A model generated the notes under the pieces. The model worked only from the letters and a program-made list of their open reading frames with translations. It did not search any database and was not told the origin of the DNA. The translations under genes and the position numbers were made by a program. From Devosia ginsengisoli (GTDB lineage Bacteria > Pseudomonadota > Alphaproteobacteria > Rhizobiales > Devosiaceae): a DNA stretch of 64,000 nucleotides. Numbering within the stretch: the stretch's first letter is position 1; the number at the start of each line of letters is the position of its first letter. Positions 2,127 through 24,495 of the stretch are shown piece after piece. Location: NCBI RefSeq assembly GCF_007859655.1, contig NZ_CP042304.1, positions 2,480,001-2,544,000 on the forward strand, given 5' to 3'.

Positions 2127-2164
2127 TCCAGTGGGTAGCCCGGCCGGTTGTGATCGGCCTGCGG

Positions 2165-2193: not shown

Positions 2194-2220
2194 ACGCATA
2201 TCAAAAGGGAGGAGCCCAAG

Positions 2221-3189: not shown

Positions 3190-3208
3190 CGCGACCTGCG
3201 GCAAATCC

Positions 3209-3235
3209 CCGGCTCCGCCCATTGGGCGGGGCCGG
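3209..3235 (+). terminator. Intercistronic hairpin after tctC
   Basis: A 12-bp stem (CCGGCTCCGCCC at 3209-3220 with GGGCGGGGCCGG at 3224-3235, one G-U pair) closes a 3-base loop. There is no downstream T-run, so it is more likely an mRNA 3'-end stabiliser or attenuator than a full terminator. Its place between the binding protein and the membrane subunits is typical. Confidence 0.55.
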
Positions 3236-3263
3236 TTGCCAGGTGCATGAAGGAGGAACGGCG

Positions 3264-6925: not shown

Positions 6926-6972
6926 TCGCAATCGGGCGACCGTTTTGGCGCGCCCTTTCAGGAGGAAAAAGA

Positions 6973-7920: not shown

Positions 7921-9065
7921 AGATCACCGCGCTCAAGACCTATCTCGTCGCGCCACGCTGGCTGTTCCTCAAGGTCGAGACCGATGAGGGCATATCGGGC
8001 TGGGGCGAGCCGGTGCTCGAAGGCCATGCCGAGACGCTGGCGACCAAGATTTCCGAACTCGCCGATTTCGTCATCGGGCTCGACCCGCGCCGGATCGAGG
8101 ACATCTGGCAGATGCTGTACCGCAATGGCTGCTATCGCGGCGGGCCGGTGCTGATGAGCGCGATTTCCGGGCTCGACATGGCGCTATGGGATATCAAGGG
8201 CCGCGCCCTCGGCGTCCCCATTCATGAACTGCTCGGCGGCCCAGTGCGCGACCGGGTGCGCACCTATTGCTGGATCGGCGGTGACCGGCCAGAGAACCTG
8301 ATCGCGGGTGCATTGGCGCTGCGCGACAAGGGCTACGATGCCTGCAAGTTGAACATCTGCTCGGAGCTGCAGATCGTCGACAGCTACGCCAAGGTGGATG
8401 GCATCATCCGCAACCTGTTCGAACTGCGCGAGGCCGTGGGCACGAGCATGGACCTTGCCTTCGACTTCCACGGGCGCGTCCATGCCCCCATGGCCCGCGT
8501 GCTGCTCAAGGAACTGGAGCCGTTGCGCCCGATGTTTGTCGAGGATGCGGTGGTTTCCACCATGGTCGAGACCATGGCCGACCTGGCGCGCGCCACCTCG
8601 ATCCCGCTCTGCATCGGCGAGCGACTGCACAGCCGCTACGACTTCAAGCGCGTGTTCGAGCTGCGCGCCGCCCAGGTAATCAACCCCGACACAGCCCATG
8701 TCGGCGGCATTTCGGAAATGGTGCGCATCGGCCATTGGGCCGAGGCCTATGACGTCGCCTTCGCGCCGCATTGCCCCCTTGGGCCGATCGCGCTGGCGGC
8801 CAGCCTGCAGGTTGACGCCATCTGCCACAATGCCTTCATCCAGGAACAGAGCCTCGGGATCCACTACAACCAGCAGGGCGATCTCGGCGACTACACCCTT
8901 CCCGGCCGCGGCTTCAGCTTCGCCGACGGCATGCTGGCGATCCCTCAGGGCCCCGGCCTGGGCATCGAGGTGGACGAGGATGCCGTCATCCACGCGGCCC
9001 AGACCGGCCACCGCTGGCGCGCCCCGGTCTGGCGGCACAAGGACGGCTCGATCGCCGAGTGGTGA
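7917..9065 (+). CDS. dgoD: D-galactonate dehydratase (mandelate racemase/enolase superfamily)
   Basis: 382 residues, the usual DgoD length, and closely similar to E. coli DgoD from memory. Shared features include PRWLFLKVETDEGISGWGEP at the start, YRGGPVLMSAISG, the metal-binding region LAFDFHGRVHAPMA (Asp near 183), FVEDAV and IGERLHSRYDFK, and the catalytic His in APHCPLGPIALAAS. It dehydrates D-galactonate (or a related aldonate) to 2-keto-3-deoxygalactonate. It is last in the operon and should feed the adjacent DHDPS-fold aldolase. FVEDAV replaces the more common FIEEPV, a small change at a metal-site loop. Confidence 0.88.
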   Translation: MKITALKTYLVAPRWLFLKVETDEGISGWGEPVLEGHAETLATKISELADFVIGLDPRRIEDIWQMLYRNGCYRGGPVLMSAISGLDMALWDIKGRALGVPIHELLGGPVRDRVRTYCWIGGDRPENLIAGALALRDKGYDACKLNICSELQIVDSYAKVDGIIRNLFELREAVGTSMDLAFDFHGRVHAPMARVLLKELEPLRPMFVEDAVVSTMVETMADLARATSIPLCIGERLHSRYDFKRVFELRAAQVINPDTAHVGGISEMVRIGHWAEAYDVAFAPHCPLGPIALAASLQVDAICHNAFIQEQSLGIHYNQQGDLGDYTLPGRGFSFADGMLAIPQGPGLGIEVDEDAVIHAAQTGHRWRAPVWRHKDGSIAEW

Positions 9066-9104: not shown

Positions 9105-10010
9105 TCAGCCGTAATTGGCCAGCTCCTGCAGGCCGCGATGAAAGCGGCTGAGCTTGGCATAGAAATCCTCCAGGATATAGCGGATGTCGATAGTGTCGTA
9201 GACCTTGATCGGCCGGTTCTGGCCGGTATGGACATAGTTCATGTGGCTGGTGAATTCAGGCGCCGGCCGCCAGTCGGACACGCCGCCATTCGGATTGAGG
9301 ATGACCGACAGAGCCGGTGTATCGCCGAGCGAGCGATGCTCGATCGGACCCGGATGGACTCGGAAATTCCAGTCGATCAACTGCTCGACGAGATAGTCGC
9401 CGATCGCTCCCTTGCCGGCGCAGCGTTCCTGCAGTTCGGCATAGCTCACCGCCATCATGCGGTAGACCGTGGACGGGATTTGCCAGACCTGGATTTTCGA
9501 GCGCATCACCACATTGGCGGCGGCGATGTCATTCATCAGGTTGAATTCGCGCCCGCCCACCGGCCAGACGCCACCGCCGATCCAGACGCAGATGACATTG
9601 CGCTCGTTGAGCCGTGGCTCCGTCAGCAAGGCCGAGGCCATGTCGGTCAGCGGACCGAGAAAAGCCACGTAGAGCGGCCGGTCGTCATCGGCCATGGCCT
9701 GGTCGATGATCATCTGCGCGCCGGGCGAGGGCACGGGCGTGGTCTCGTCGGGCAGCGCCGTCGCCGCGCCATTGGCCACCGGGATACGACCCGAAAGCTC
9801 CATGAGTTGGAGCAGCTTGTCGATCTCGGCCCGGCTATCCAGCATGCTGGTCTGCGAGCGATGCGCGCCGAAATGGGCGGCGATGATGCCGTGGAAATCG
9901 AACGTCGGCGTCAGCAGGGCATGAACGATGGTGAACTGGTCGTCGGCCTCGTTCTTGGCATCGGTATTGAGGATGAGGCGGGCGCGCTTTTCGCGGGGCA
10001 GCGTGGTCAT
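9105..10010 (-). CDS. Nucleoside hydrolase-like (IUNH fold) protein
   Basis: 301 residues. The N-terminal motif LILNTDAKNEADDQF is a divergent form of the DTDPGxDD calcium-binding loop of nucleoside hydrolases, and VAFLGPLTDMASAL matches the family GPLTN(L/I)A motif. Last gene of the minus-strand operon, 13 bp after the isomerase. Nucleoside hydrolases cleave N-ribosides, but here the partners process a (branched) pentose. It may instead hydrolyse a pentofuranoside supplied by the transporter, or a nucleoside-like aglycone conjugate. Function is inferred only from fold and context. Confidence 0.75.
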   Translation of the reverse strand: MTTLPREKRARLILNTDAKNEADDQFTIVHALLTPTFDFHGIIAAHFGAHRSQTSMLDSRAEIDKLLQLMELSGRIPVANGAATALPDETTPVPSPGAQMIIDQAMADDDRPLYVAFLGPLTDMASALLTEPRLNERNVICVWIGGGVWPVGGREFNLMNDIAAANVVMRSKIQVWQIPSTVYRMMAVSYAELQERCAGKGAIGDYLVEQLIDWNFRVHPGPIEHRSLGDTPALSVILNPNGGVSDWRPAPEFTSHMNYVHTGQNRPIKVYDTIDIRYILEDFYAKLSRFHRGLQELANYG

Positions 10011-10023
10011 ATTTCCAACTCCG

Positions 10024-11004
10024 TCAGAATGAGCCGAACAGGGCTCTTTGCGCGATCTTCAGCGCGCCGATGGCGTCATGCTTGCTCTGGGCCTCCTTGA
10101 GCGCATCGATATCGAGGGCGTCGAGCCCCTTCGAGGCGGCCTTGAGGAAGTCGATGGCATGGTTCGCGGTCGCGACGCTGTCCTCGCGGAACGGGAACTG
10201 GTCGAGTTGCCAGACGCCCTCCCACTTGTTCTTGCGCAGCACGTAGAAGAATTCGAACAGCTCGATGGGATGCAGGCTCCCCGCGACCAGGTCATCGTCC
10301 CAGGAGCGGTAATTGTCGTTGACGTCCATGCCGAAAAGGCGGCCGTAATCGATAGCCATCTGGGCGGAATCGGCGGCCGACTCCCCGCCGAACAGGGCAT
10401 GGCCGAAATCGAGCAGGATGCCGACATTGGGCAGGCCGATCTTCTCGATGCCGAGTAGCGTGCGGGCGAGCGAGTCGAAGCTCATATGCACGCGCGGCTC
10501 ACGCGGCTTGTATTCGATGACGAATTTGAGGTCTGGATTCTCGCTGGCGAGCTGGCCGACGCCATCGAGTGAGTGCTTCCACAGCGTGCCGTGATCGACC
10601 TGGAACGGATAGTCCCACCCATCCTGGCCCGGCCACAGCTTGACATAGTCGGCATTGAAGAAGCGGACCACGTCGCAGGCTTCGGTGATCAGCTCATGGG
10701 CCCGGCGGCGCACCCCGGCATCCGGGTTGGTGAAGGCACCCTTGGCAAATTCGCGGGTGTAGATTTCGGGCGTGATGCCTATGACCCCGAGCCTGTTGCG
10801 GTCGAGCGCCGCCTTGATCTGGGCGTTGCTGAACGCCCCGCCGAAGAACGGATAGTTGATGTCCACGACCGAAAGGTCTTTCACCTGGCCGGCTAGGTCG
10901 ATGGCCTCGATGACGCTGCGCGGCGCGCCATAGCCGTCGGTGGCGTAGCGATCGACATAGGTGGCGAAGTGCCAGATGCCGGCACCGAAACGCTGGCTGC
11001 TCAT
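10024..11004 (-). CDS. Xylose-isomerase-like TIM-barrel sugar isomerase, candidate D-apiose isomerase
   Basis: 326 residues. AP-endonuclease-2/xylose isomerase-like barrel with putative metal ligands in [11 protein letters not shown] (~178), [13 protein letters not shown] (~215) and [14 protein letters not shown] (~250). The ATG at 11004 has GGAGGA upstream and overlaps the kinase stop. With a kinase and a split transketolase in the same operon, the best inference is an aldose-ketose isomerase making the kinase substrate. In the described D-apiose pathway an isomerase of this fold converts apiose to apulose. Other pentose substrates cannot be excluded. Confidence 0.75.
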
Positions 11005-12506
11005 TGTTGTCCTCCATGGGTCGGCCCGTTCGGGGCTTGTATGTTCAAGGTCTGGGTGATGGCAGCGCTCCAGCGGGCGCGATGCGCGATGCGGTCGGCC
11101 TCGGCCATGGCGGGTTCGCAGCGGCCGGCGGCAGGCACCGGGGCCATGGCGACCCCAAGGCGGGCAAAGGCCAGGGCGGCCGCGCCGAGTGCGCTGACCT
11201 CGGGCGCCGCCGCCATGGCGACGGGCCGCGCGATGATATCGGCCTGGAACTGCATCAGCAGCGGATTGCGCGAGGCGCCGCCATCGGCACGCAGCTCGGC
11301 TATGGGCAGACCCATATCCTGCTCCATGGCACTAACCACATCGGCCACCTGGAACGCGATTGCCTCGATGGCCGCCCGCGCCAGGTGCGCCGGTTTCGTG
11401 CCCAGCGACAGGCCGGTAATGGTGCCCCTTGCATCGGAGCGCCAATAGGGCGCGCCAAGCCCGACCAGGGCCGGGACGAAGGCGACGCCATTGCTGTCGG
11501 GCACGCTCTCGGCAAGGGCGGACAAGGCGGCTGAATCGGCCAGTCCCAGCATGTCGGCCATGAAGGCGGCACTCTGGCCCGAAACCGAAATATTGCCCTC
11601 GAGCGCATGCGCAACCATGCCGCCCTGGCTCCAGGCGATGGTGCTGGACAGGCCGTGCCGCGACAGCACGCGGCCCGGCGTGAGGGCCATCAGTGACGTG
11701 CCGGTGCCATAGGTCGCCTTGACCATGCCCGGACTGCGCACGCCGTGGCCGAATAGGGCGGCGTGGGAGTCGCCGATCATGGCATGGATCGGGATGCCGG
11801 CCGGAAGCGCCGTAGCGCCGGCAGCGAGACTGCCGAAATTGCTGTCGGACGATCGCACCTCGGGCAACAGCGCCATGGGCACGCCGAACAGGTCCGCCAG
11901 CTCTTCGTCCCAGTGCAAAGCCGAGGTGTCGAAGAGCTGGGTCCGCGCGGCGTTGGAATGGTCGGTGGCGTGCATGGCGCCCGCCGTCAGCGACCAGAGC
12001 AGCCAGCTATCGACCGTACCGGCGCGCAGCTCGCCCCGCTCGGCGCGCCGGCGCGCGCCTGGAACATTGTCCAGCAGCCAGGCAATCTTGGCTGCGGGAA
12101 AGAGCGGATCGAGGGCAAGCCCGGTTTTCTGCTCGATCATCCCGGCATGCCCCTGCCCCCGCAGCGTCTCGCAGGCTGGAGCCGAGCGGCGACATTGCCA
12201 GATGATACAGGGGCCGATGGGCTCGCCCGTGGCCGCGTCCCAGACAACGATGGATTCGCGCTGGTTGGAGATGGCAAGGGCGGCGATCCCCGCGCTGCCG
12301 CCCGCCTTGGAGACAATTTCGGCGATCACCTGGCGCACGCCCTCGACCAAAGCCGTGGCCGATTGCTCAGCCCAACCCGGCTGGGGATAGGTCACCACAT
12401 TGGGCACCGCGGCCTGGTGCAACACGCGTCCATCCGCGCCCACCAGCAGCGCCTTGGTGTTCGACGTGCCCTGGTCGATGGCGAGAATGCGGCCGGTCAT
12501 GCTCAT
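11001..12506 (-). CDS. FGGY carbohydrate kinase (glycerol-kinase-like), candidate apulose kinase
   Basis: 501 residues from an ATG at 12506 that overlaps the transketolase stop. An FGGY kinase close to Glp[16 protein letters not shown] (phosphate 1 loop), [54 protein letters not shown]. The GlpK WQDRR motif reads WQCRR, and glycerol-contacting positions differ, so a different triose- or branched-ketose substrate is likely. Operon partners suggest phosphorylation of the ketose made by the isomerase to give a 4-phosphate for transketolase. Confidence 0.85.
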
Positions 12507-13459
12507 CACTTGCGGGCGATGGTCTGCCGCACGGCGTCGGCTATGCCGGTTTCGGTCAGGCCAAAATGCTCCATCAGCCATGCTGCCGAACCAGTTGGCA
12601 CGAAACCGGGAAAGCCCATGATGCGCATGGGGACGGGCGTATTGGCGGTGACGATTTCGGCCACCGCACCACCCAGTCCGCCGCGCACCGAATGCTCTTC
12701 CACCGTGACGATGGCGCCGGTTTCGGCCGCCGCGAGAATGGCGGCCTCGTCGAGCGGATTGACCGTCGCCATGTTGATCACCCGCGCCGAGATGCCCTCG
12801 ACCGCCAGCGCTCGAGCCGCCGCCACCGCGCGATGCACCATGGTGCCATTGGCGATGATGGCGGCATCATTGCCTTCCATCAGCGTCTCGGCCTTGCCGA
12901 TTTCGAAGCGCGCATGTTTACGCGCCAGCGCCGGCACCGGCATGCGGCTGATGCGCACGAAGACCGGGCCATCCATGACCGCGGCAGCGCGAATGGCCTG
13001 CTCGGTCTGCCAGGGATCGGCCGGCACGATCAGCGTCAGGTTGTTGAACAGGCGCAGCCAGGCCATGTCCTCGATGGAGTGATGCGTCGGCCCCAGTTCG
13101 CCATAGGCGACGCCGCTTGACTGGCCGATCAGCTTCACATTGACATTGGAATAGGCAATGTCGGCCTTGACCTGTTCCATGGCACGGCCGGTGATGAAAC
13201 AGGAAGCGGCCGACACGAAGGGCACCTTGCCGCCATTGGCCAGGCCCGCGCCGACGGCCACCAGGGTTTGTTCGGCAATGCCGACATTGACCATGCGCTC
13301 GGGCCATTTCTTCCTGAAACCGGCCAGTTTGGACGAGCCGACACTGTCGCTGACCACCGTGACGATGCGAGCGTCCTGCTCGGCCAGTGACTCGATGGTG
13401 GCGGCGAAACTGTCGCGGCAATCGAACAGGCCAGCTTCGGCCGGGGCTGCTGCACTCAT
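12506..13459 (-). CDS. Transketolase C-terminal subunit (pyrimidine-binding half)
   Basis: 317 residues. The ATG at 13459 overlaps the stop of the N-terminal subunit. It carries the Pyr domain with the cofactor-activating Glu in NVGIAEQTLVAVGAGLA, the THHSIEDMAWLR loop and the C-terminal transketolase domain. Together with the next gene it forms one active enzyme, as in other split transketolases. Two-subunit transketolases are used by the D-apiose route to act on apulose-4-phosphate. Housekeeping transketolase is normally one ~660-residue chain, so this is a dedicated catabolic copy. Confidence 0.88.
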   Translation of the reverse strand: MSAAAPAEAGLFDCRDSFAATIESLAEQDARIVTVVSDSVGSSKLAGFRKKWPERMVNVGIAEQTLVAVGAGLANGGKVPFVSAASCFITGRAMEQVKADIAYSNVNVKLIGQSSGVAYGELGPTHHSIEDMAWLRLFNNLTLIVPADPWQTEQAIRAAAVMDGPVFVRISRMPVPALARKHARFEIGKAETLMEGNDAAIIANGTMVHRAVAAARALAVEGISARVINMATVNPLDEAAILAAAETGAIVTVEEHSVRGGLGGAVAEIVTANTPVPMRIMGFPGFVPTGSAAWLMEHFGLTETGIADAVRQTIARK

Positions 13460-14307
13460 CAAACCAACTCCGCCATGGCCTGCTCGTATTGTTCCTTGTT
13501 GGGCACGCCATGATGCCAGTCAACATTGTCATGCATGAAGCTCACGCCCTTGCCCTTGATGGTATTGGCGATGACGCAAAGCGGCTTGCCGCGGCCCTTC
13601 GGGCTGGCGCTGAGCATGGCCAGCAGTTGATCGGGATCGTGCCCGTCAATGGTTTCGACATGCCAGCCGAAGGCCCGCCATTTGTCGTCGAGCGGGTCGA
13701 GCGAGGCCGTCTCCTCGGTGCGCGCGCCCTGCTGCAGGCGGTTGCGATCGATGATAACCGTCAGGTTCTCGAGCTTGCGATGGCCCGCCGTCAGGGCCGC
13801 TTCCCAATTACTGCCTTCCTGCAATTCACCGTCGCCGGTCAACACGAAGGTACGGAAATCGGCGCCGTCCATCTGGCCGGCAATGGCGATGCCGGTGGCA
13901 ACGGGCAGGCCATGCCCCAGCGGGCCGGTATTGGTTTCGACGCCGGGCAGGTAATTGCGGTTGGGGTGGCCATTGAGCCGGCTCTGCGGCTCCATATACG
14001 TCGTCAGCTCCGCCTCGGGGAAATAGCCGGCCGCCGCCAGCACCGCATAGAACGCGCCGGTGCAATGGCCCTTGCTCATCACGAAGCGGTCGCGCCCTGG
14101 ATCGCCGGGCTTTGTCGGGTCGAAGCGCAGCACGCCGAAATAGAGGGCGGCAAGAATGTCGGCCGAACTGAAATCGCCGCCGGGATGGCCCAGTTGCGCC
14201 TCATAGACCATCTGGAAGCTGCGACGGCGGATCCAGAGGGCCTTGTCGCGGACAATCCTGGCCAGATCATTGGGCAGAGTGGTTTGAACCGGCGCGGTCG
14301 ATAGCAA
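13459..14307 (-). CDS. Transketolase N-terminal subunit (TPP-binding half)
   Basis: 282 residues from a TTG at 14307 with GGAGG six bases upstream; the nearest internal ATG would remove conserved N-terminal sequence. Landmarks are QLGHPGGDFSSADILAALYF, FVMSKGHCTGAFYAVLA, and the thiamine diphosphate motif GDGELQEGSNWEAALTAGHR ending at the Asn of VIIDRNRLQQ. First gene of the minus-strand sugar operon, diverging from the DeoR regulator. Confidence 0.88.
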   Translation of the reverse strand: MLSTAPVQTTLPNDLARIVRDKALWIRRRSFQMVYEAQLGHPGGDFSSADILAALYFGVLRFDPTKPGDPGRDRFVMSKGHCTGAFYAVLAAAGYFPEAELTTYMEPQSRLNGHPNRNYLPGVETNTGPLGHGLPVATGIAIAGQMDGADFRTFVLTGDGELQEGSNWEAALTAGHRKLENLTVIIDRNRLQQGARTEETASLDPLDDKWRAFGWHVETIDGHDPDQLLAMLSASPKGRGKPLCVIANTIKGKGVSFMHDNVDWHHGVPNKEQYEQAMAELV

Positions 14308-14423
14308 AGCGGGCCTCCAGGCGACAGCAGCGAGCCGGCGTCAGCGTCCGCGAGCGATGCTACCTGTGCGGGTTCCCTCGGGGCGCGGCAATGTGGGTCG
14401 CCGTCTCTTGTTTAGGCGGAAGC

Positions 14424-14484
14424 TATAATGCACTTTGTTTTCGCGCAATACGGAAAAGTTTCGATTTATGCGTTTTCCTTTCGA
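14424..14484 (+). promoter_or_regulatory. Divergent control region: -10 element and three TTTCG boxes 20 bp apart
   Basis: A perfect TATAAT (14424-14429) points toward the DeoR gene, though no good -35 is visible. Just downstream, TTTCG occurs at 14439-14443, 14459-14463 and 14479-14483 (the last two are TTTCGA), exactly 20 bp apart, i.e. about two helical turns, on one face of the DNA. Repeats of this type suit a multimeric DeoR-family repressor controlling both its own gene and the divergent transketolase operon. Related TTTCGA and CGAAA words also occur at 15435-15440 and 15532-15536, before the ABC transporter. Confidence 0.5.
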
Positions 14485-14575
14485 TATCTTTTGGCGCTGA
14501 GAGTGATTTGCCGCGTTGAATCCGTTGCATTCCGGCGCCGCCGATGACAAACAGGATTGGCAGGCAGGGGCGGAA

Positions 14576-15433
14576 ATGCCTCGTCATATTGGGGTGATGA
14601 TGCAAAAGGGCGGGACGAACAGGCCCATTCGCGAGCGGATTGCAGCGTCCGATACCGGGCGCCCGCAATTGCTGGCCGAGCCGCGGCGCATGAAAATTCT
14701 CGAATGGCTGCAGGAAGAGGGCAGCGCACGCGTGCGCGACCTGTCCGCCGCCTTTGCCGTGTCGGAGGCCACCATAAGGCAGGACCTCGAGCGCCTCGAC
14801 AGCGACGGCTATATCACCCGCGAGCATGGCGGCGCCTATCTCCGCTCCGTGCCGCAGCAGGTGCAGTCCATGACGCTGCAGCACGGCCAGAACATGGACA
14901 AGAAACTGCGCATCGGCATGGCCGCCGCAGCCTTGGTCGGTGACAGCGAAACCATCATCATCGACTCGGGCACCACCACCACGCAATTCGCGGAAAACCT
15001 CAAGTCCCGCCGCGATCTCAACATCATCACCAATGCGCTCAACATCGCGCTGATCCTCGGCGCGATCCCCACCAATACCGTTCACATGCCGGCCGGCCAG
15101 TTCAAGGCGCCGACCCTGTCGCTGAGCGGGGAGAAGTCGGCGGAATTCTTCGTCGGCATCTATGCGCAAAAACTGTTCCTGGCCACGGCAGGAATATCCT
15201 TCGAGGCCGGCCTCACCTATCCCGCCATCGGCGACATCTACGTCAAGCGCTCGATGGTCAAGGCGGCCTCGCATATCTACCTGCTCGCCGACTCGACCAA
15301 GATCGGCCGCGTCTCCTTCTCCGCCCTGGGCGGTGTCGAGATTGTGCACACGCTGATCACCGATAGCGGCATCCGCGACGAAGACCGCGCAGAATTCGAG
15401 CGTCGCGGCGTCGACGTCATCGTCGCGGTCTGA
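14576..15433 (+). CDS. DeoR/GlpR family transcriptional regulator
   Basis: 285 residues from the ATG at 14576 (purine-rich CAGGGGCGGAA upstream; in-frame starts at 14594, 14597 and 14600 are also possible). DeoR helix-turn-helix around residues 35-85 (RDLSAAFAVSEATIRQDLER, HGGAYL), then the DeoRC sugar-phosphate-sensing domain with IIIDSGTTTTQFAENL and IYLLADSTKIGR. It sits between the divergent transketolase operon and the ABC transporter operon and likely controls both in response to a phosphorylated sugar. Confidence 0.9.
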   Translation: MPRHIGVMMQKGGTNRPIRERIAASDTGRPQLLAEPRRMKILEWLQEEGSARVRDLSAAFAVSEATIRQDLERLDSDGYITREHGGAYLRSVPQQVQSMTLQHGQNMDKKLRIGMAAAALVGDSETIIIDSGTTTTQFAENLKSRRDLNIITNALNIALILGAIPTNTVHMPAGQFKAPTLSLSGEKSAEFFVGIYAQKLFLATAGISFEAGLTYPAIGDIYVKRSMVKAASHIYLLADSTKIGRVSFSALGGVEIVHTLITDSGIRDEDRAEFERRGVDVIVAV

Positions 15434-15484
15434 GTTTCGACTTCCATTTTTTGGTATTTGCGCCGCTGGTTGCCGCCAGGGGCA

Positions 15485-15536
15485 TTGACATCGCATATTC
15501 TCAATCATATTCGTTAGAAATCGCAAGGAAACGAAA
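15485..15536 (+). promoter_or_regulatory. Promoter of the ABC transporter / apiosidase operon with possible operator
   Basis: TTGACA at 15485-15490 (perfect -35) and TATTCG at 15508-15513 with 17-bp spacing. A GAAA/CGAAA-rich stretch follows (15517-15536), resembling the TTTCG boxes of the divergent region on the other strand. The rest of the 300-bp gap (15434-15734) is leader: no ORF I would support, ending in a strong ribosome site GAGGAGG at 15721-15727. Confidence 0.5.
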
Positions 15537-15734
15537 CTAGTCAAAAACACCTGCGATGCGCGTCAGGGTATGCGCGAAGGCCCGAGGGAGGCTCTGCTCA
15601 ACCAACAATTGCCCGCCATGACATCCGTGGCGGCGGCATTGACGAGCAGGCGTGCCAGCCAATGGGTCTCGGAAGCACCCAAACAAGAGACGGCTCGGCC
15701 GAGAGGGATCCGGGTCAGTCGAGGAGGACGTAAC

Positions 15735-17639
15735 ATGGCACGGCTTGGCCGATTTCTGATGGCGCCCCTGATGGGCGCGCTTCTGACCACCACCGCCTTT
15801 GCGCAGACGATGACCGATGTCGGCACCCCGCGCGCCGAAACACTGATCGTACAGACCTTCGATGGTCGCGCCGCCAACGCTTCGGCACAGAACCCGATGA
15901 ATTCCTATGCCATCTGGCGCGGTTTCCGCGAACTCGGCTGGAGCTGGCTGTGGGAAATGGATACGGCCACCGGCCAGTCCTATCCCGAGCTCGCCGCCGG
16001 ACCGGTCGAAGTGCTTAACGACGAACACACCCAGTTCCGGGTGAAGCTGCGTGAAGGCGTCTACTGGAGCGATGGCACCGAATTCACCGCCGCCGACGTG
16101 ATCTATTCGCTCGATACCTATGTGAAATATCGCAGCCAGCTCGGTCGCGTGGCGGTGATCGCCAACTTCGTCAAGAGCTGGAAGCAGATCGACGACTACA
16201 CGTTCGAGGTCGAAACGATCAATCCGTCCTACGACTTCCAGACGGTGATGGGCGTCTATACCTGGGGTTCGCAATTCGTCATCGTTCCCAAGCATGTCTA
16301 CGAGCCGCTTGGCGACGATGTGGTGACCTTCCAGAACACCAATGCGGTGACGCTCGGGCCCTACAAGATCAAGGAATTCGATCCCAACGGCTCGTGGCAG
16401 CTCTGGGAACTCCGCGAAGATTGGGAACGCTCCGGCTGGGGCAATCTCGGCCAGCCCAAGCCCAAATTCATCCTCTACAAGGATTTCGGCGCCGAAGAGA
16501 CGCGTGCCCTGGCTTTCGTGCAGAACCAGTACGATGTCGACACCTTCATGAGCCCCGACTCCATCGAGGCCGCCAAGGCGCGCAATCCCAATGTCGAGAG
16601 CTTCTCGCCGACCTTCCCCTATCACGATATGAACGACGCCTGCTCCTATGGCGTCTATATCAACGGCCAGCGGGCACCCTACGACAAGCCCGAGGTGCGC
16701 TGGGCCCTGGCGCTCGCCCTCGACATGCAGCAGGTCGGCATTTCTTCGATGAGCGGTCAGTTCAAGGCCGGGGCACTGCCGCTGGCCGATACGCCGATCA
16801 CCAACCCGCTCTACTACGCGCCGCTCCAGTCCTGGCTCGAAGAGCTGACCCTGCCGGACGGCTACAAGCCCTACAACACCAATTTCGGCGCCGAACTGGC
16901 CGAAGCCCTGGCCGCGCAGGGCGTCGATGCCGCCCAGTTGCCCACGGGCGATGCCATCGAAACCGGCTTCGGCATGGGCTGGTGGAAGCATGATCCGGCG
17001 GAGGCGGCAAAGCTGCTGGAATCGGTCGGCATGAAGAAGGGATCCGATGGCTTCTTCGCCCTCGAAGACGGCTCGCCATGGGTCATCGAATTCGTCATTC
17101 CAGGCGACTGGAACAAGGTCATCCAGCGCATCGGCTTCTCGATCGCCGATAGCTGGCGCCAGGCCGGGTTCAACATCAATACCCGCCAGGTGGACAATGG
17201 CGAATGGACCACGGTCCAGAACACCAATGCCCGCAACCAGCTGATGATCAACTGGGGGCAGTCCTGCACCTATAACTCCAACTGGCAGAATTCCTGGCGT
17301 CAGTTCGCCGAGACCTATGTCCTGCCGCCCGACTCGACCGATGCGCTCAACGGCAACTTCATGCGCGTCACCGACCAGCGGATTTTCGACATCGTGGCCG
17401 ACAGCGCCCAGCTGCCGACCGACGATCCGCAATTCCTCGAGAACGGCCGGCAGATCGCGCAATATCTCACGGAAGATATGCAGATGATCAATCTGATGAA
17501 CATTCCGACGACGATCCCGACCAACAAGACCTATTGGACCAACTTCCCCAAGCAGGACAACTTCTACGCTGCGCCCTACACCTGGTGGAGTTCCTTCAAG
17601 CAGACGGTCGTCAATATCGAACCCACTGGCCAGCAATAA
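15735..17639 (+). CDS. ABC transporter substrate-binding protein, family 5 (peptide/oligosaccharide type)
   Basis: 634 residues from the ATG at 15735 behind GAGGAGG; longer upstream ORF sequence is leader. Signal peptide MARLGRFLMAPLMGALLTTT-AFAQT. Typical SBP_bac_5 motifs: FRVKLREGVYWSDGTEFTAA, YGVYINGQRAPYDKPEVRWA and DSWRQAGFN. About 100 residues longer than peptide-binding OppA proteins and rich in Trp/Tyr near the end (AAPYTWWSSF), as in family members that bind plant oligosaccharides. Located with apiosidase-like enzymes, so an apiose-containing oligosaccharide or glycoside is the likely ligand (inference). Confidence 0.88.
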   Translation: MARLGRFLMAPLMGALLTTTAFAQTMTDVGTPRAETLIVQTFDGRAANASAQNPMNSYAIWRGFRELGWSWLWEMDTATGQSYPELAAGPVEVLNDEHTQFRVKLREGVYWSDGTEFTAADVIYSLDTYVKYRSQLGRVAVIANFVKSWKQIDDYTFEVETINPSYDFQTVMGVYTWGSQFVIVPKHVYEPLGDDVVTFQNTNAVTLGPYKIKEFDPNGSWQLWELREDWERSGWGNLGQPKPKFILYKDFGAEETRALAFVQNQYDVDTFMSPDSIEAAKARNPNVESFSPTFPYHDMNDACSYGVYINGQRAPYDKPEVRWALALALDMQQVGISSMSGQFKAGALPLADTPITNPLYYAPLQSWLEELTLPDGYKPYNTNFGAELAEALAAQGVDAAQLPTGDAIETGFGMGWWKHDPAEAAKLLESVGMKKGSDGFFALEDGSPWVIEFVIPGDWNKVIQRIGFSIADSWRQAGFNINTRQVDNGEWTTVQNTNARNQLMINWGQSCTYNSNWQNSWRQFAETYVLPPDSTDALNGNFMRVTDQRIFDIVADSAQLPTDDPQFLENGRQIAQYLTEDMQMINLMNIPTTIPTNKTYWTNFPKQDNFYAAPYTWWSSFKQTVVNIEPTGQQ

Positions 17640-17651
17640 GCTGACCGAGGG

Positions 17652-17692
17652 CGAGGCAGCCCATGTCCTCCCGGGCTGCCTCGTCACTTTTT
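17652..17692 (+). terminator. Hairpin with T-run between binding protein and permease genes
   Basis: An 11-bp perfect stem (CGAGGCAGCCC at 17652-17662 with GGGCTGCCTCG at 17673-17683) is followed by TCACTTTTT. It is probably a leaky intrinsic terminator, so the binding protein is made in excess over the membrane complex. Confidence 0.6.
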
Positions 17693-17710
17693 CTCCTTGA
17701 GGTTTGACCT

Positions 17711-18712
17711 ATGGGTGTCCTGGGCTTCGTGGCCAAACGCATCGGCCTTTATCTGGCGGTGCTGTTTATCGGCCTCACCATCACTTTCATGCTGCCCCGC
17801 CTCATGCCGATCAACCCGGTCGATGGCTATATCGGGCAGATCCAGAGCCGCGCCAATGGCACGCTGACGCCCGAGGCCATTGCCGAGATGCGCGCCAATC
17901 TCGAAGTGCTCTACGGCCTCAAGGGCGACCTGTTCACCCAGTATGTTTCCTATCTCAAGCGCGTCGTCATCGACTTCGATTTCGGGCCGTCCTTCACCTA
18001 CTATCCCGCCGAAGTCTCGACCATGATCACCACGGCGCTGCCCTGGACGCTGGGCCTGCTGCTCACCGCCACGGTCATCGCCTGGCTGCTGGGCAATATG
18101 GTGGGCCTGGTCGCCGGCTACTTCCACAAGAAGAAAGCCGCCTCGATCCTCGAATTCGTCGGCATCCTGCTCTACCCGATCCCCTATTACATCCTCGCCG
18201 TTACCGTGCTGCTGGTGCTGGCCTACATTTTCCCGATCTTCCCGCTCTCGCCCACCTTCCCGGTCGGAGAGCTGACGCCCGCCAAGATGGGCATGATCGT
18301 CTACAATTCACTGCTCCCCGCCATCACGCTGGTGCTGGCTGGCTTTGGCTGGAACATCCTGTCGATGAAGGCGCTGGCGGTGGCGACCACTGAGGAGCCC
18401 TATGTCACCTATGCGCGGCTCAAGGGCGCGTCGAACTGGACGCGCATGACGCGCTACGTGTTCCGCAACGCGCTACTGCCGCAGGTGACCGCTCTGGCCC
18501 TGTCGCTGGGCATGATCTTCAACGGCGCGCTGCTGACCGAGATCATCTTCTCCTATCCCGGCATCGGGCTGATCATGCGCACCGCGGCGACGGGTGGCGA
18601 CTACAACGTCCTCTATGGCGCGATCACGCTCTCCATCCTGGCTGTCGCCACGGCGGGCCTCGTCATCGACCTCATCTATCCTCTCCTCGATCCCCGGATC
18701 CGCAGCAAATGA
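17711..18712 (+). CDS. ABC transporter permease, DppB-like
   Basis: 333 residues, six predicted helices. It begins GFVAKRIGLYLAVLFIGLTITF, then a large periplasmic loop containing LEVLYGLKGDLFTQY, characteristic of the first permease of family-5 transporters. The permease-ATPase coupling loop is YVTYARLKGASNWTRM (~233). It forms the channel with the next gene, overlapping it by ATGA. Part of the import system next to the apiosidase-like enzymes. Confidence 0.9.
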   Translation: MGVLGFVAKRIGLYLAVLFIGLTITFMLPRLMPINPVDGYIGQIQSRANGTLTPEAIAEMRANLEVLYGLKGDLFTQYVSYLKRVVIDFDFGPSFTYYPAEVSTMITTALPWTLGLLLTATVIAWLLGNMVGLVAGYFHKKKAASILEFVGILLYPIPYYILAVTVLLVLAYIFPIFPLSPTFPVGELTPAKMGMIVYNSLLPAITLVLAGFGWNILSMKALAVATTEEPYVTYARLKGASNWTRMTRYVFRNALLPQVTALALSLGMIFNGALLTEIIFSYPGIGLIMRTAATGGDYNVLYGAITLSILAVATAGLVIDLIYPLLDPRIRSK

Positions 18713-19626
18713 GTATCGACGCCAACAATGCCGATCCGGTTGCGCTGGTCGTTGCGCCACCCGTTGCCGGCAAGCCCGGACCGCAGAAATCGGGGCTGCT
18801 CTGGCTCCTCAACGGCCGCCTCGCCGTGGGCCTTGTCATCCTTGTCGTCATGGGGCTCGGCAGCTTCATCCTGCCGCTCTTCGCGCCAGCCGACCCGTCG
18901 GTTCAGGCGACCTATATGCGCAACCTGCCGATGTCGGGCATCCACTGGCTCGGCACCAATGCCCTGGGCCAGGACATCTTCTGGTTCCTGGTGTTTTCCG
19001 TGCGCAATTCGCTGATGCTCGGCATCCTCGTGGCCGTGGGCGTGACCATCATCGCCACCATTGTCGGCCTCAGCGCCGGCTATATCGGCGGCACCTTCGA
19101 ACGGCTGGTCATGCTGATCGTGGATACGTTCATCACCATCCCGCTGCTGCCCATCCTCATCATCCTGGGCGCGCTTATTCGCGGCAATACCAGCTTCTTC
19201 ACGGTCGGGGTGATCATCATCATCTTCGGCTGGGCCTGGGACGCCCGCACGGTGCGGTCCATGGCGCTCTCGCTGCGCGAGCGCGAATTCATCAACATGG
19301 CCCGCTTTTCGGGCGCCAATACCTTCAATGTCCTGACCCGGGAAATCTTGCCCTATGTGTCGGCCTATATTCTGGTTGGCTTCATCAACACGGTGCTCTT
19401 TGCCATCAATACCGAGGCCACGCTGGCGGTGATCGGCCTGTCCAAGGTGGAGGTTCCGACGCTCGGTTCGATCATCTTCTGGGCGCTGAGCTACAACGCG
19501 CTGTTCACCGGGCAATATCCCTGGATCGTGGCGCCGATCGTCGCCACCGTGACCCTGTTCCTTGGCCTGTTCCTGACCTCCACCGGCTTCAACCAGGCCT
19601 TTGCCAGCAAGCGTGGTGTGTCATGA
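18709..19626 (+). CDS. ABC transporter permease, DppC-like
   Basis: 305 residues. Hydrophilic N-terminus, one helix, then HWLGTNALGQDIFWFLVFSVR (the GTDxxGRD motif of DppC/OppC proteins in altered form) and a five-helix core with the coupling loop EREFINMARFSGANTFNV (~197). ATGA overlaps with both neighbours. Second channel subunit of the importer. Confidence 0.9.
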   Translation: MSIDANNADPVALVVAPPVAGKPGPQKSGLLWLLNGRLAVGLVILVVMGLGSFILPLFAPADPSVQATYMRNLPMSGIHWLGTNALGQDIFWFLVFSVRNSLMLGILVAVGVTIIATIVGLSAGYIGGTFERLVMLIVDTFITIPLLPILIILGALIRGNTSFFTVGVIIIIFGWAWDARTVRSMALSLREREFINMARFSGANTFNVLTREILPYVSAYILVGFINTVLFAINTEATLAVIGLSKVEVPTLGSIIFWALSYNALFTGQYPWIVAPIVATVTLFLGLFLTSTGFNQAFASKRGVS

Positions 19627-20531
19627 TCCGCCTCAACGACCTCAAGATCAGCTATCGCATCGGCAACCGGGTCATCGACGCGGTGGACGGCGTGAACCTG
19701 ACTATTCCGGACCGCTGCGTCGTGGGCATTGCCGGCGAGTCAGGGTCCGGCAAATCGACCCTGATGAAGGCCATCTATGGCGACATCCAGTCGCCGATGT
19801 ACCTGTCGCGCGGCTCGATCGACTATGGCCTCAAGGGGAGCGACGGCCAGCCGGTGACGACTGCGAATGTGCGGCGGGAATGGTTCAAGTCCATGTCCTA
19901 TATTCCGCAGAGCTCGATGAACTCGCTCAATCCGGTCATCCGCATTCGCGACCAGTTCATCGACTTCCCCGGCGCCGACAGCAACAAGAAGCGCGTGCTG
20001 GAACGGGCCCGCGACTATATCGGCAAGCTGGGCCTGCCGCCCGAAGCGCTCGATTCCTATCCCCATCAGCTCTCGGGTGGCATGCGCCAGCGCGTGATGA
20101 TCGCGCTCGCCACCTTCTTCCAACCCGAACTGATCATCGCCGACGAGCCCACCACGGCGCTCGACGTGGTGGTGCAGAAGGAAATCCTGATGCTGCTGAT
20201 GGAACTGCAGGAGCAGATGGGCAATACCATCCTCGTGGTCTCGCACGACATGGGCGTGCACTATCAGGTCACCCACAAGATGCTGATCATGTATGCCGGT
20301 CGCGTCGTCGAATATGGCGACACCGACAGTGTCTTCGCCGACCCGCAGCACCCCTATACCCGGATGCTGATCGACTCCCTGCCCACCATTGGCGACGACA
20401 GCATGCGCGGCGTCCTGGCCAGCGCCGCCGGAGCCGGTGGCGACCGCGCCTACGGGGTGACGCCGGACCTGATCGAGGTCAAGCCAGGCCACTTTGCGGC
20501 GCGCGCCGAGGAAGCGGGAGTCTCGGCATGA
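19623..20531 (+). CDS. ABC transporter ATP-binding protein, DppD-like
   Basis: 302 residues, ATG at 19623 overlapping the permease stop. Complete ATPase: Walker [10 protein letters not shown] (~39), Q-loop in SYIPQSSMNSLNP, signature LSGGMRQR (~148), Walker [13 protein letters not shown] and the switch His in VSHDMG. It ends with the DppD/OppD extension (HPYTRMLIDSLPTIG) but lacks the usual Cys-rich oligopeptide tail, which fits a carbohydrate rather than peptide importer. Confidence 0.9.
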   Translation: MIRLNDLKISYRIGNRVIDAVDGVNLTIPDRCVVGIAGESGSGKSTLMKAIYGDIQSPMYLSRGSIDYGLKGSDGQPVTTANVRREWFKSMSYIPQSSMNSLNPVIRIRDQFIDFPGADSNKKRVLERARDYIGKLGLPPEALDSYPHQLSGGMRQRVMIALATFFQPELIIADEPTTALDVVVQKEILMLLMELQEQMGNTILVVSHDMGVHYQVTHKMLIMYAGRVVEYGDTDSVFADPQHPYTRMLIDSLPTIGDDSMRGVLASAAGAGGDRAYGVTPDLIEVKPGHFAARAEEAGVSA

Positions 20532-21352
20532 CGATCATCCTCAAGACCGAAGGGCTCAACAAGGTCTACCGTCAGGGCGGGCTGGTCCGTGCCCGCCAGA
20601 TTCATGCCCTCAACGAGGTCAACATCACGGTCGAGAGTGACAAGCCCGTGGTGATCGCCGTCGTCGGCGAGTCCGGCAGCGGCAAGACCACCCTGGCCAA
20701 GACGCTGCTGCGCCTGGAAACCCCGACCTCCGGCCGGGCCATCGTCTATGACAGCGTCGTGGCCGGCAAAGGCGCGACGCCCTCAAGGCGGGAATTCCTC
20801 GGCCTGGTGCAGCCCATCTTCCAGAATCCGTTCGAGGCCTTCAGCCGCTATCGACCCGTCGATGCCTATCTCCACGAAACGGCGCGACGCGTTGCCGGCA
20901 TGGACGAAAGCCAGGCGGAGGCGGCCGTAGCCGAAGCGCTGCACAGCGTGGGCCTCGACGCTGTCGAGGTCCGCGGCAAATATAGCGGCCAGTTCTCGGG
21001 GGGCGAGTTGCAGCGCATTTCAGTCGCGCGGGCGCTCATCCCGCAACCCCGGCTCATCGTCGCCGACGAGCCGGTCAGCATGATCGATGCGTCCCGGCGC
21101 ATGATCATCATCAACCTGTTCAAGCGCCTGCGCGACGAGCAGGGCCGCAGCTTCCTCTACATCACCCATGACCTTGCCACGGCCTATTACATCAGCGATT
21201 TCGTGGCCGTGATGAACAAGGGGCAGGTGGTCGAATTCGGCCCGGCGCGCCAGGTAATGTCCGACCCCCAGCACGCCTATACGCGCCTGCTGCTCGATTC
21301 CATTCCCACCATAGGCTCCCGCTGGCGCCCCCGCGCGCCGGCCGCCGCCTGA
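20528..21352 (+). CDS. ABC transporter ATP-binding protein, DppF-like
   Basis: 274 residues, ATG at 20528 overlapping the previous stop. Walker A GESGSGKTT (~46), signature FSGGELQRISVARAL (~158), Walker B LIVADEPVSMIDAS with Met in place of the usual Ala/Leu, and switch ITHDLATAYY. Second ATPase of the importer. Stops 27 bp before the first apiosidase-like gene, so probably co-transcribed with it. Confidence 0.9.
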   Translation: MTIILKTEGLNKVYRQGGLVRARQIHALNEVNITVESDKPVVIAVVGESGSGKTTLAKTLLRLETPTSGRAIVYDSVVAGKGATPSRREFLGLVQPIFQNPFEAFSRYRPVDAYLHETARRVAGMDESQAEAAVAEALHSVGLDAVEVRGKYSGQFSGGELQRISVARALIPQPRLIVADEPVSMIDASRRMIIINLFKRLRDEQGRSFLYITHDLATAYYISDFVAVMNKGQVVEFGPARQVMSDPQHAYTRLLLDSIPTIGSRWRPRAPAAA

Positions 21353-21379
21353 CCAATTTCCTTGAAGACGGGATAGCAA

Positions 21380-22978
21380 ATGACCAGTTCCGCCATTGCC
21401 GACAGCGCCGCGTCGCTGTGGGCCACCTATGAGCTCACCCTTGCCGGCCCTTCGGAGGGCAATCCGTTCCAGGATGTCGAACTGCGCGCAATCTTCCAGC
21501 AGGGCGACCGCCAAGTTCGGGTCGATGGCTTCTATGACGGGGACGGCACCTACAAGCTGCGCTTCCTGCCCGATACGACGGGAACCTGGACCTATCAGAC
21601 GTCGAGCAACAGCCCGGCGCTGGATGGCGCGAGCGGTTCGCTCGATGTCGGCCCCGCCAGGCCCGGCCATCATGGTCCGGTCCGCGTCTCCAACCGCCAC
21701 CATTTCCGCCACGCCGACGGCACCCGCTACATCAATATCGGCACCACCGCCTATGTATGGAACCTGCAGGGCGACGCGCTGGAGGAAGAGACCCTGGCGA
21801 CCCTGGCCGAGGCGCCCTTCACCAAGATCCGCATGTGCGTCTTCCCCAAGCACTACCGCTACAACGAGAACGAGCCCGATCACTATCCCTTCCCGCTGAT
21901 GAAACAGGGCGAAAGCAAGTGGACCGGCAGCTTTGCCGGCAGCGGTGCGGGCTGGCAATTCGATCTCGAACGTTTCGAGCCGGCCTATTTCCGCCATCTC
22001 GAAAAGCGCATCAATCAATTGGCCGAAATCGGCGTCGAGGCGGACCTGATCATCTTCCACCCCTATGACCGCTGGGGCTTTTCGAAGATGTCGCCGGCCC
22101 AGGACGATCGCTATCTCAGATACCTGGTCGCGCGGCTGGCGGCTTTGCCCAACGTCTGGTGGTCGATGGCCAACGAATACGACCTCATGCCGAGCAAGAC
22201 GCTGGCCGATTGGGACCGCTTCATTCACATCGTGTCGGACAGCGATCCCTATGGGCACCTGCTGGGCGTCCATAACTGCTTCGCCTTTTACGATCACAAC
22301 CATCCGCGCATCACCCATGCGAGCATCCAGCGCTCGGCCGCGGCCAATTCGGCGCTGTGGCGCGAAAAATACGGCAAGCCGGTGTCGATCGACGAATGCT
22401 GTTACGAGGGCGACATTGCCGAGCTCTGGGGCAATATCTCCGCGCAGAAAATGGTGCGCCGCTTCTGGGACGGCACGGTCAATGGCGGCTATGTCACCCA
22501 TGGCGAAACCTACGGCAATGATAGTGACACCATCTGGTGGGCCAAGGGCGGCAAGCTGACCGGCGAGAGCGTCGCGCGCATCGCCTTCCTCAAACGCATT
22601 CTCGAGGAAGGGCCGGACGAGGGGCTCGACCCGGTCAAGTCGACCGGTGCCTATCGCATCCAGTTGAGCGGCGGGCTCGACAATGTCGTGCTGCAGCAAC
22701 TCTTCATCCCGCCGGTGGGCGAGGAAGACTGGCCGCGGGTCCAGGCCTGGTTCGCCACGGCAGGTCAGCCGCATCGCTACTACCTGACCTATCTCGGCGA
22801 GAACACGCCCAGCGAATTCGCCGTCGCCGTCCCGCCCGGCGAGCGCTATTCGGCAACCCTGATCGACACCTGGCACATGACCGAGACCGCCATTGCCGAC
22901 GGCGTGCAGCGTGGCGACCTGCTGCATTTCGCCCCCAAGCCTTATCAGGCGCTGCTGTTCAAGCGCATCGACGGATGA
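21380..22978 (+). CDS. Apiosidase-like glycoside hydrolase (DUF5060-DUF4038-DUF5605 architecture), copy 1
   Basis: 532 residues. The N-terminal beta-sandwich of the DUF5060 type spans ~10-100 (GFYDGDGTYKLRFLPDTTGT). It is followed by a TIM-barrel domain of the DUF4038 / GH140 apiosidase-like family (~110-420) and a small C-terminal domain. Candidate catalytic acids are Glu266 in WWSMANEYD and Glu339 in SIDECCYEGD. No signal peptide, so it should act in the cytoplasm on imported glycosides. The next gene is a paralogue. GH140 enzymes remove D-apiose from pectin side chains; the exact linkage here is unknown. Assignment is from remembered family features. Confidence 0.72.
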   Translation: MTSSAIADSAASLWATYELTLAGPSEGNPFQDVELRAIFQQGDRQVRVDGFYDGDGTYKLRFLPDTTGTWTYQTSSNSPALDGASGSLDVGPARPGHHGPVRVSNRHHFRHADGTRYINIGTTAYVWNLQGDALEEETLATLAEAPFTKIRMCVFPKHYRYNENEPDHYPFPLMKQGESKWTGSFAGSGAGWQFDLERFEPAYFRHLEKRINQLAEIGVEADLIIFHPYDRWGFSKMSPAQDDRYLRYLVARLAALPNVWWSMANEYDLMPSKTLADWDRFIHIVSDSDPYGHLLGVHNCFAFYDHNHPRITHASIQRSAAANSALWREKYGKPVSIDECCYEGDIAELWGNISAQKMVRRFWDGTVNGGYVTHGETYGNDSDTIWWAKGGKLTGESVARIAFLKRILEEGPDEGLDPVKSTGAYRIQLSGGLDNVVLQQLFIPPVGEEDWPRVQAWFATAGQPHRYYLTYLGENTPSEFAVAVPPGERYSATLIDTWHMTETAIADGVQRGDLLHFAPKPYQALLFKRIDG

Positions 22979-24495
22979 CGATCATGACCACTATTGCCCA
23001 ATGGGATATGTTCGAGGCCAGCTTCAACGGACCAGCCGACGGCAATCCGTTCCGCGACGTGCAGCTTGAAGCCACGTTTCGACAGCATGGCCGCAGCGTG
23101 CGCGTACCCGGCTTCTACGATGGAGAAGGCGTCTACAAGGTCCGCTTCATGCCCGACAATGCCGGGGCGTGGAGCTTCGTCACGAAATCGGGGGCCGCCG
23201 AACTCGACGGCCAGGCCGGCAGCGTCACAGTCACTGCGCCGCGACCGGGCAATCATGGCCCGGTACAGGTCGCCAATCGCTTCCATTTCGCCCATGCCGA
23301 CGGCACGCCATTCCTGTCCTTCGGCACTACCTGCTACGCCTGGACACACCAGCCGCTAACCGAGCAGCAGAAGACCCTCGCAACCCTGGCCTGGACGCGC
23401 TTCAACAAGCTGCGCATGGGCGTCTTCCCCAAGGACTATCCCTACAATGTCAACGAGGCACTGCACGACGTCTACCAGCGCGATGCCAGCGGCAATCTCG
23501 ATTTCGACCGGCCCAATCCCGAGAGCTTCCGCCACTTCGAAAACCAGGTGAAGGCGCTCGGCGACATGGGCATCCAGGCCGACATCATCATGCTGCATCC
23601 TTATGACCGCTGGGGCTATAGCGGCATGAGCGAAGCGCAGGACTACCGCTATTTCGCCTACCTGACGGCGCGCCTGGCCGCCTATCACAACGTGTGGTGG
23701 TCCCTCGCCAACGAATACGATTTCCTCCTCGACACCAAGCCGATGCACCAATGGGACCGCTACTTCCACATCATCGAGGAAAACGACCCCTATGGTCACC
23801 TGCGCTCGATCCACAATGGCGATCCCGAGGCCAATTACGATCACCGCAAGGCCTGGGTCACCCATGTCTGCATCCAGAACTGGGACGTGAAGCGCACGGG
23901 CGAATGGCGCGCCGCCTATGGCAAGCCCGTGGTCAATGACGAGCCGGAATATGAGGGCAACATCATCCAGAGCTGGGGCAATATCTCGGCCGGGGAACTG
24001 GTGCACCGCTTCTGGACCACGGCCATGCGCGGCGGCTATGCCGGCCATGGCGAAACCTTCAGCCATCCTCAGGACCTGATCTGGTGGGCCAAGGGCGGCG
24101 AATTGCATGGCGAGGCATGGCAGCGCATCGGCTTCCTGCGCGACGTGATGGAGGAGAGCGTCACCAACGGCTTCGATCCCATCGATCCGAAAATGGGCTT
24201 TCCCTGGAATCGCATTTCGGGCGCCCGCGACGGCGACACCACCATCATCTATTTGGGCGAGCACCAGCCCGTCATCTGGGCCGCCGGCCTGCCGCAGGAC
24301 GACCGAAACTATGCGGTCGACCTGATCGACACCTGGAACATGACGGTCACCCCGGCCAGGATCGTACCCGCACCGGAAAACCACCCGACTCGCCACGGGA
24401 CGCATGTTCGACCGCGCAAACCGGATGCCGCCTTTGCGGTGGAACTGCCCGGCAAACCGAACCTCGCCATCCGCATCCGGCCAGCCGGCAACTGA
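22975..24495 (+). CDS. Apiosidase-like glycoside hydrolase, copy 2
   Basis: 506 residues from the ATG at 22975 overlapping the stop of copy 1. Same three-part architecture and clearly related along the whole length (GFYDGEGVYKVRFMPD, HPYDRWGYSGMSEAQDYRYF). Candidate catalytic acids are Glu247 in WWSLANEYD and Glu323 in VNDEPEYEGN. Relative to copy 1, the segment after FPKxY differs (HDVYQRDASGNLDFDRPN), suggesting a different substrate pocket. No signal peptide. Tandem duplication followed by divergence is the simplest history. Last gene of the transporter operon. Confidence 0.72.
   Translation: MTIMTTIAQWDMFEASFNGPADGNPFRDVQLEATFRQHGRSVRVPGFYDGEGVYKVRFMPDNAGAWSFVTKSGAAELDGQAGSVTVTAPRPGNHGPVQVANRFHFAHADGTPFLSFGTTCYAWTHQPLTEQQKTLATLAWTRFNKLRMGVFPKDYPYNVNEALHDVYQRDASGNLDFDRPNPESFRHFENQVKALGDMGIQADIIMLHPYDRWGYSGMSEAQDYRYFAYLTARLAAYHNVWWSLANEYDFLLDTKPMHQWDRYFHIIEENDPYGHLRSIHNGDPEANYDHRKAWVTHVCIQNWDVKRTGEWRAAYGKPVVNDEPEYEGNIIQSWGNISAGELVHRFWTTAMRGGYAGHGETFSHPQDLIWWAKGGELHGEAWQRIGFLRDVMEESVTNGFDPIDPKMGFPWNRISGARDGDTTIIYLGEHQPVIWAAGLPQDDRNYAVDLIDTWNMTVTPARIVPAPENHPTRHGTHVRPRKPDAAFAVELPGKPNLAIRIRPAGN

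Follow-up and report, generated by a model that had tools for sequence, protein, structure and literature searches.

The window analyzed here, a stretch of 64,000 nucleotides from Devosia ginsengisoli, harbors at positions 9105–24495 an island of two divergent operons, which is real and recurrent and most likely serves the utilization of apiosides; its catabolic core is known, and the coupling of this core to the other functions is new. Probably, a plant glycoside containing apiose is imported whole and degraded intracellularly, the activities involved being predicted. The core encoded in the minus-strand operon (gene order TKN-TKC-KIN-ISO-NH) is very probably the D-apiose transketolase pathway, as judged by homology of its predicted enzymes. 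This sugar pathway itself is already known; its coupling to import and internal hydrolysis was not found in the literature searched. The divergent plus-strand operon (DeoR-SBP-PER1-PER2-ATP1-ATP2-GHa-GHb) carries the importer and two predicted glycosidases. The features of the island are as follows:

9105..10010, minus strand: NH, nucleoside-hydrolase-like protein of 301 amino acids, last gene of its operon and candidate second glycosidase (PF01156 65.7 bits, cut-off 34.2)
10024..11004, minus strand: ISO, TIM-barrel sugar isomerase, predicted D-apiose isomerase (AP_endonuc_2 69 bits)
11001..12506, minus strand: KIN, FGGY kinase, predicted apulose kinase (FGGY_N/FGGY_C); the start at 12506 is inferred from an ATG that overlaps the 3' terminus of the gene before it
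12506..13462, minus strand: TKC, C-terminal half of a split transketolase, AptB-like (Transket_pyr and Transketolase_C)
13459..14307, minus strand: TKN, N-terminal (thiamine diphosphate) half of the split transketolase, AptA-like (Transketolase_N 155.5 bits)
14308..14515, no strand: divergent intergenic region, enriched in TTTCG elements (a weak lead only)
14516..15433, plus strand: DeoR-family regulator (DeoRC 136 bits, HTH_DeoR 62.6 bits), true start possibly further in
15735..17639, plus strand: SBP, family-5 solute-binding protein with a hydrophobic N-terminal stretch (SBP_bac_5 143.4 bits); the frame is open from 15570, and the likely start is the ATG at 15735, after GAGGAGGA
17711..18712, plus strand: PER1, importer permease (BPD_transp_1 112.6 bits)
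18709..19626, plus strand: PER2, importer permease (BPD_transp_1 68.6 bits, OppC_N)
19623..20531, plus strand: ATP1, importer ATPase (ABC_tran and oligo_HPY)
20528..21352, plus strand: ATP2, importer ATPase (ABC_tran and oligo_HPY)
21380..22978, plus strand: GHa, DUF5060-PF13204-DUF5605 protein, predicted cytoplasmic glycosidase
22984..24495, plus strand: GHb, DUF5060-PF13204-DUF5605 protein, predicted cytoplasmic glycosidase, more widely shared than GHa

A preliminary description of this DNA had placed the split transketolase, the FGGY kinase and the TIM-barrel isomerase in one operon divergent from the regulator, importer and glycosidase genes. This arrangement was borne out, and the domain search recovered every gene named there, with the domains assigned to it, within the island, including an Opp-type family-5 importer set (SBP_bac_5, two permeases and two oligo_HPY ATPases). 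The fifth gene of the minus-strand operon, NH, had been overlooked: the coordinate at which the locus was said to begin is the 3' end of this gene.

The likeness of the core to characterized apiose enzymes, on which the same description had drawn, is upheld by direct comparison. TKN is 49% identical to AptA (over 242 columns), TKC 41% identical to AptB (over 287 columns), and KIN 44% identical to AplK (over 493 columns, 399 bits), all of E. coli SE15. In one-way searches of the window's genome, AptA retrieves TKN as the best match (253 bits; next 85 bits), and AplK retrieves KIN (418 bits; next 334 bits). ISO is 61% identical over 320 residues to the protein of PDB 3ktc (E 2e-129), a far stronger match than those to xylose (1e-16) and rhamnose (3e-10) isomerases. 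The structure 3ktc was named xylose isomerase by its depositors; we take it to be a D-apiose isomerase. An assignment of ISO as a xylose or rhamnose isomerase was rejected, since its NCBIfam scores (63.7 and 60.9 bits) are far under the cut-offs (447 and 531.35). Among 343 named loci with relatives of ISO, the best 80 were examined together with the neighboring genes in the fetched flanks; ISO is 80–96% identical in these. The kinase is less clear-cut: KIN is also close to the glycerol kinase GlpK, and although its score (505.7 bits) is below the cut-off of 590.35, the kinase tree is compatible with a glycerol-kinase reading. This tree does not firmly separate AplK from L157, the next AplK match in the window's own genome and probably a glycerol kinase; AplK, a Rhizobiaceae group, actinobacterial rows, Rhizobium/Devosia rows, and L157 with rows of Alphaproteobacteria single-amplified and metagenome-assembled genomes (MAGs) share one open fork.

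The D-apiose transketolase pathway of Pectobacterium and Escherichia was reportedly described by Carter et al. in 2018. It has been reported that Pectobacterium carotovorum WPP14 and Escherichia strains possessing the apiose cluster grow on D-apiose, whereas K-12 does not, and the Pectobacterium cluster has the isomerase gene apsI, instead of which Escherichia has two putative oxidoreductases (PMC13001218). The pathway (apsI, aplK, aptA, aptB) shares with the island the FGGY kinase and the two-subunit transketolase, with an isomerase as reported for Pectobacterium. The cluster of E. coli SE15 differs: its importer is of the ribose type and accompanied by DUF2291, and it lacks both an isomerase and any annotated glycosidase, whereas the island has an Opp-type importer, two PF13204 enzymes and the nucleoside-hydrolase-like protein.

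The connection of the glycosidases with the core is supported by their distribution in a sample of 75 genomes of the genus, of which 36 have a close isomerase and 35 a PF13204 gene of this type. Both occur in 32 genomes, the isomerase alone in 4, PF13204 alone in 3 and neither in 36 (Fisher p 1.9e-13, uncorrected for kinship); i.e., the PF13204 gene is found in 32 of the 36 genomes with the isomerase vs. 3 of the 39 without it. The two genes lie within 15 kb of each other in 28 of the 32 genomes and on different contigs in the remaining 4. As to the genomes with PF13204 alone, one (G070) has a transketolase/kinase cluster (TKN, TKC and KIN in L184) resembling that of G027 (L183), a genome without a close isomerase, where the same three genes are flanked by E. 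coli-type short-chain dehydrogenases/reductases, whose identities to the SE15 oxidoreductase pair are 62 and 54%. Another (G009) retains apparent remnants of the transketolase/kinase operon (L122), and the third (G071) has no close TKN; its GHb sits close to the end of a contig (L121), with a GH95 gene at a distance of about 6 kb.

Gene maps were drawn for 40 fetched regions of the genus, eight of which, along with two further stretches, were read gene by gene. The core recurs across the 40 regions, while the importer and glycosidase modules are exchangeable. In the first module type, as in the window, the family-5 importer is accompanied by GHa and usually GHb; in the second, GHb lies between the permease and the ATPase of a CUT1-like importer (L119, L124); in the third, GHb accompanies a CUT2-like importer (L125, L126), the importers of the latter two types being named by reading. 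GHa-type matches are present in 26 of the 40 regions, 24 of them with family-5 importer genes, one cut by a contig end (L123) and one without such genes (L154). The association of the genes exceeds chance: many genomes of the genus show the same arrangement again, and the isomerase and PF13204 are correlated over the 75 genomes.

GHa and GHb are the only PF13204 ("Apiosidase") matches in the window's genome, a single contig of 4.48 Mb that looks complete, the two scoring 63.7 and 60.4 bits against a curated cut-off of 26.5. Apart from DUF5060, PF13204 and DUF5605, no domain was found in them up to E 1e-3, hence no PF12904, and no signal-peptide-like stretch was seen in either. The glutamate nucleophile of GH140 (Glu284 of BT_1012) is kept in both proteins; the EPxYE loop reads NDEPEYEG in GHb and IDECCYEG, without the proline, in GHa. 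At the position of the aspartate acid/base (Asp187 of BT_1012), 3kzs and 8t9w have GGD but GHa and GHb have ANE, the equivalence being set by motif and position and not by residue-level superposition. ANE is invariant in all 19 aligned sequences, as are NE and DE. By structure comparison, GHb shares the GH140 fold and is also near a GH5 mannanase; the structural lists come from a second alignment of Foldseek hits, so families outside them are not thereby excluded. Among the matches of profile A2 up to E 10 there is no GH140 chain; nevertheless, both proteins pass the PF13204 cut-off.

Compared with the GH140 apiosidases (BT_1012, PDB 3kzs/5msy; 8t9w), GHa and GHb are 14–15% identical, have glutamate for the aspartate acid/base, an extra DUF5060, and DUF5605 instead of PF12904. 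The uncharacterized BVU_0362 (PDB 4n0r) is among the closest known systems. Judged by the acid/base residue, GHa and GHb appear not to belong to GH140, with the fold and the nucleophile loop in agreement with that family. The earlier GH140-like label is to be replaced by "Glu-type PF13204 enzyme". These proteins may represent a Glu acid/base branch of PF13204, possibly with apiosidase function. The interpretation given in the preliminary description was partly supported.

Outside the genus, GHb lies inside the fetched flank in 7 Rhizobium-type loci among the best 80 of the 343. In three of these, read gene by gene (L042, L051, L058), it belongs to a CUT1-type unit before or after the same core. 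There, the permease and ATPase genes of a different importer enclose it, or, in a truncated locus, it stands at the end of that importer; in L042, the presence of SBP_bac_1 and of a MalK-type ATPase was confirmed. In a wider sample of 385 genomes of the order outside the genus, GHb occurs at 59–76% identity in 17, none of which has a close isomerase. Two of the genomes, from one genus of another family (L172, L174), carry a CUT1-like GHb unit near a gene matching the NCBIfam family of the D-apionate lactonase ApnL (scores of 1062 and 1033 bits against a cut-off of 750). The vicinity also holds a CUT2-like permease, Dak1 and Dak2 genes and an oxidoreductase of the Gfo/Idh/MocA family; this neighborhood presumably represents an oxidative D-apiose route. 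A third genome (G367) has the importer type of the window (65–78% identical) with GHb (60%) on one contig (L177) and, on another (L186), ApnL (850.7 bits), OiaX (786.9 bits, cut-off 700), an OiaK-like kinase below its cut-off (491.7 vs. 700 bits) and an importer with DUF2291. From ApnL near GHb in the first two genomes and ApnL with OiaX in the third, we infer a tie of GHb to a second apiose route: all three genomes combine this glycosidase with the predicted use of apiose by another pathway.

Two findings weigh against this tie of the glycosidase to apiose. Twelve of the 17 GHb-bearing genomes outside the genus have neither an ApnL match (E 1e-60) nor a close isomerase, 10 of the 12 belonging to one genus (g110), and the GHb–ApnL association over the whole sample is modest (p 0.012 over the cut-off, 0.17 at E 1e-60). 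Alternatively, the core may serve D-apiose while the importer and the PF13204 enzymes handle another plant glycan accompanying apiose, e.g., by trimming rhamnose, glucose or mannose off a larger chain, the apiose itself coming from elsewhere. Such a division of labor would also accord with the structural proximity of GHb to the GH5 mannanase, with the GH95 gene near GHb in L121, and with genes of the GH78 type that lie some 5 kb away from GHb in L122 and close to the core in L148. It is, however, rather unlikely in view of the co-occurrence in the genus, the presence of GHb together with a second, unrelated apiose pathway, and the EPxYE nucleophile loop common to GHb and GH140. The glycosidases of other families near the core or GHb comprise GH78-type rhamnosidases, GH95, GH3 and GH43 (L148:5512-7887, L122:16151-18535, L121:340-2733, L101:1360-5345, L090:1-1483); these are possible hints at the linked sugars of the imported glycosides.

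The protein NH offers another candidate for the cleavage step. It has the fold and the PF01156 score of the inosine-uridine nucleoside hydrolases (1mas and others), sharing with them the Asp cluster and the E-x-N motif. It differs in its Asp loop, which is two residues longer, and in the His of the HDP motif, presumably catalytic, which is Gly in NH and in 4 aligned relatives, while the canonical member L153 has HDP; identity to 1mas is 19%. The nucleoside hydrolase fold binds the cis-diol of a furanose via calcium, and apiofuranose has such a diol. NH may be a second apiosidase. It is quite unlikely that NH is the true beta-apiofuranosidase and that GHa and GHb merely prepare its substrate. 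The loss of the His with retention of the sugar-site residues would fit such a role, as would the close orthologs in 24 genomes of the genus, all with the isomerase, the divergent NH copy directly after GHb in 3 genomes without the operon copy, and the NH-like genes that, among the best 80 of the 343 loci, 4 from actinobacteria have in the vicinity of the core. Furthermore, NH is retained in all 4 isomerase genomes that lack the PF13204 glycosidase, and the glycosidase is present in all 12 that lack NH (within-group p 0.28, not significant). On the other hand, the close ortholog is absent from those 12 of the 36 isomerase genomes, distant relatives (about 30% identical) occur in the isomerase-free genomes G017, G050 and G080, no acid for an O-glycoside leaving group was identified in NH, and we know of no O-glycosidase with the nucleoside hydrolase fold. 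A broader version is somewhat unlikely: NH would be a nucleoside-hydrolase-fold furanosidase re-tooled for apiose, cutting beta-D-apiofuranosyl bonds either alongside a new family of Glu-type PF13204 apiosidases or in its place, and throughout the genus importers and cutters would be swapped around the recurring apiose core.

It is very improbable that the island as a whole is devoted to a rare or branched pentose other than D-apiose: the closeness of KIN to glycerol kinase and the occurrence of isomerase relatives (80–85% identical) in Alphaproteobacteria taken to be marine, where plant apiose is no obvious food, would favor it, but the identities to a cluster type supporting growth on D-apiose and the occurrence of GHb with ApnL/OiaX in other genera speak against it. 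So does a feature shared with the E. coli cluster, namely that the core of L042 (Rhizobium) and of L096 has a CUT2-type importer and DUF2291 in its neighborhood.

Under the preferred interpretation, i.e., uptake and internal breakdown of an intact apioside, an apioside or an apiose-bearing oligosaccharide would be captured in the periplasm by the family-5 binding protein and imported through its pair of permeases with the help of both ATPases. The cytoplasmic GHb and GHa, using Glu both as acid/base and as nucleophile, would then cut the import and release D-apiose, and NH may cleave an additional apiofuranosyl bond. In the known pathway, D-apiose is converted via apulose to apulose 4-phosphate, the substrate of the transketolase. 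ISO is predicted to carry out the first of these conversions and the FGGY kinase the second, after which the split transketolase would transfer two carbons of its substrate to a central-metabolic sugar phosphate, so that a product of three carbons remains. The DeoR protein would, by its position, switch both divergent operons. As a candidate DeoR operator, TTTCG was counted at 9.1 per kb in 24 such intergenic regions vs. 3.2 per kb in the loci; with composition uncontrolled, this count was not used.

Elsewhere in the window, the plus strand at 2131–9065 carries tripartite-transporter-like, GntR-like regulator, hydroxyacid dehydrogenase and dihydrodipicolinate synthase-like genes, named by reading the sequence, and a galactonate-dehydratase-like enolase (586.3 bits, cut-off 311). 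A weak AptA match (24.6 bits) at 29103–29561, in an open frame of 682 amino acids, is probably an ordinary thiamine enzyme.

Paralogs of ISO (L178–L182, 34–36% identical) have, by reading of the sequence, ribokinase, FGGY or sugar-importer genes as neighbors in most cases; the one match to an apiose gene next to them was that to an oxidoreductase (26%) in L181. Locus L181 harbors, about 22 kb from the apiose isomerase of its genome (G068), a second isomerase-like gene (L181:8872-9861, 36%) in a ribokinase/sugar-importer context, by reading. A further isomerase-like stretch (G011:C5:27048-27782), 54% identical, contains four in-frame TGA codons. The relatives with 80–85% identity to ISO were found in 19 uncultured Alphaproteobacteria, one Alphaproteobacteria MAG and one Pelagibacteraceae MAG (L082, L094-L097, L099, L100, L102-L115). 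TKN is present, too, in 18 of these 20 Alphaproteobacteria loci and in the Pelagibacteraceae MAG, and L096 has a DUF2291 lipoprotein. Judging by isolate names, we take these to be open-ocean genomes.

If this origin is true, marine bacteria may use apiose as well, making it a possible marine food. To our knowledge, the described catabolism of apiose begins at the free sugar, and little has been described of how soil bacteria win apiose from plant glycosides. The island joins import, internal hydrolysis and catabolism, and supplies two enzyme types with specific residue changes. It also points to a Glu acid/base branch of PF13204, whose members are possible apiosidases.

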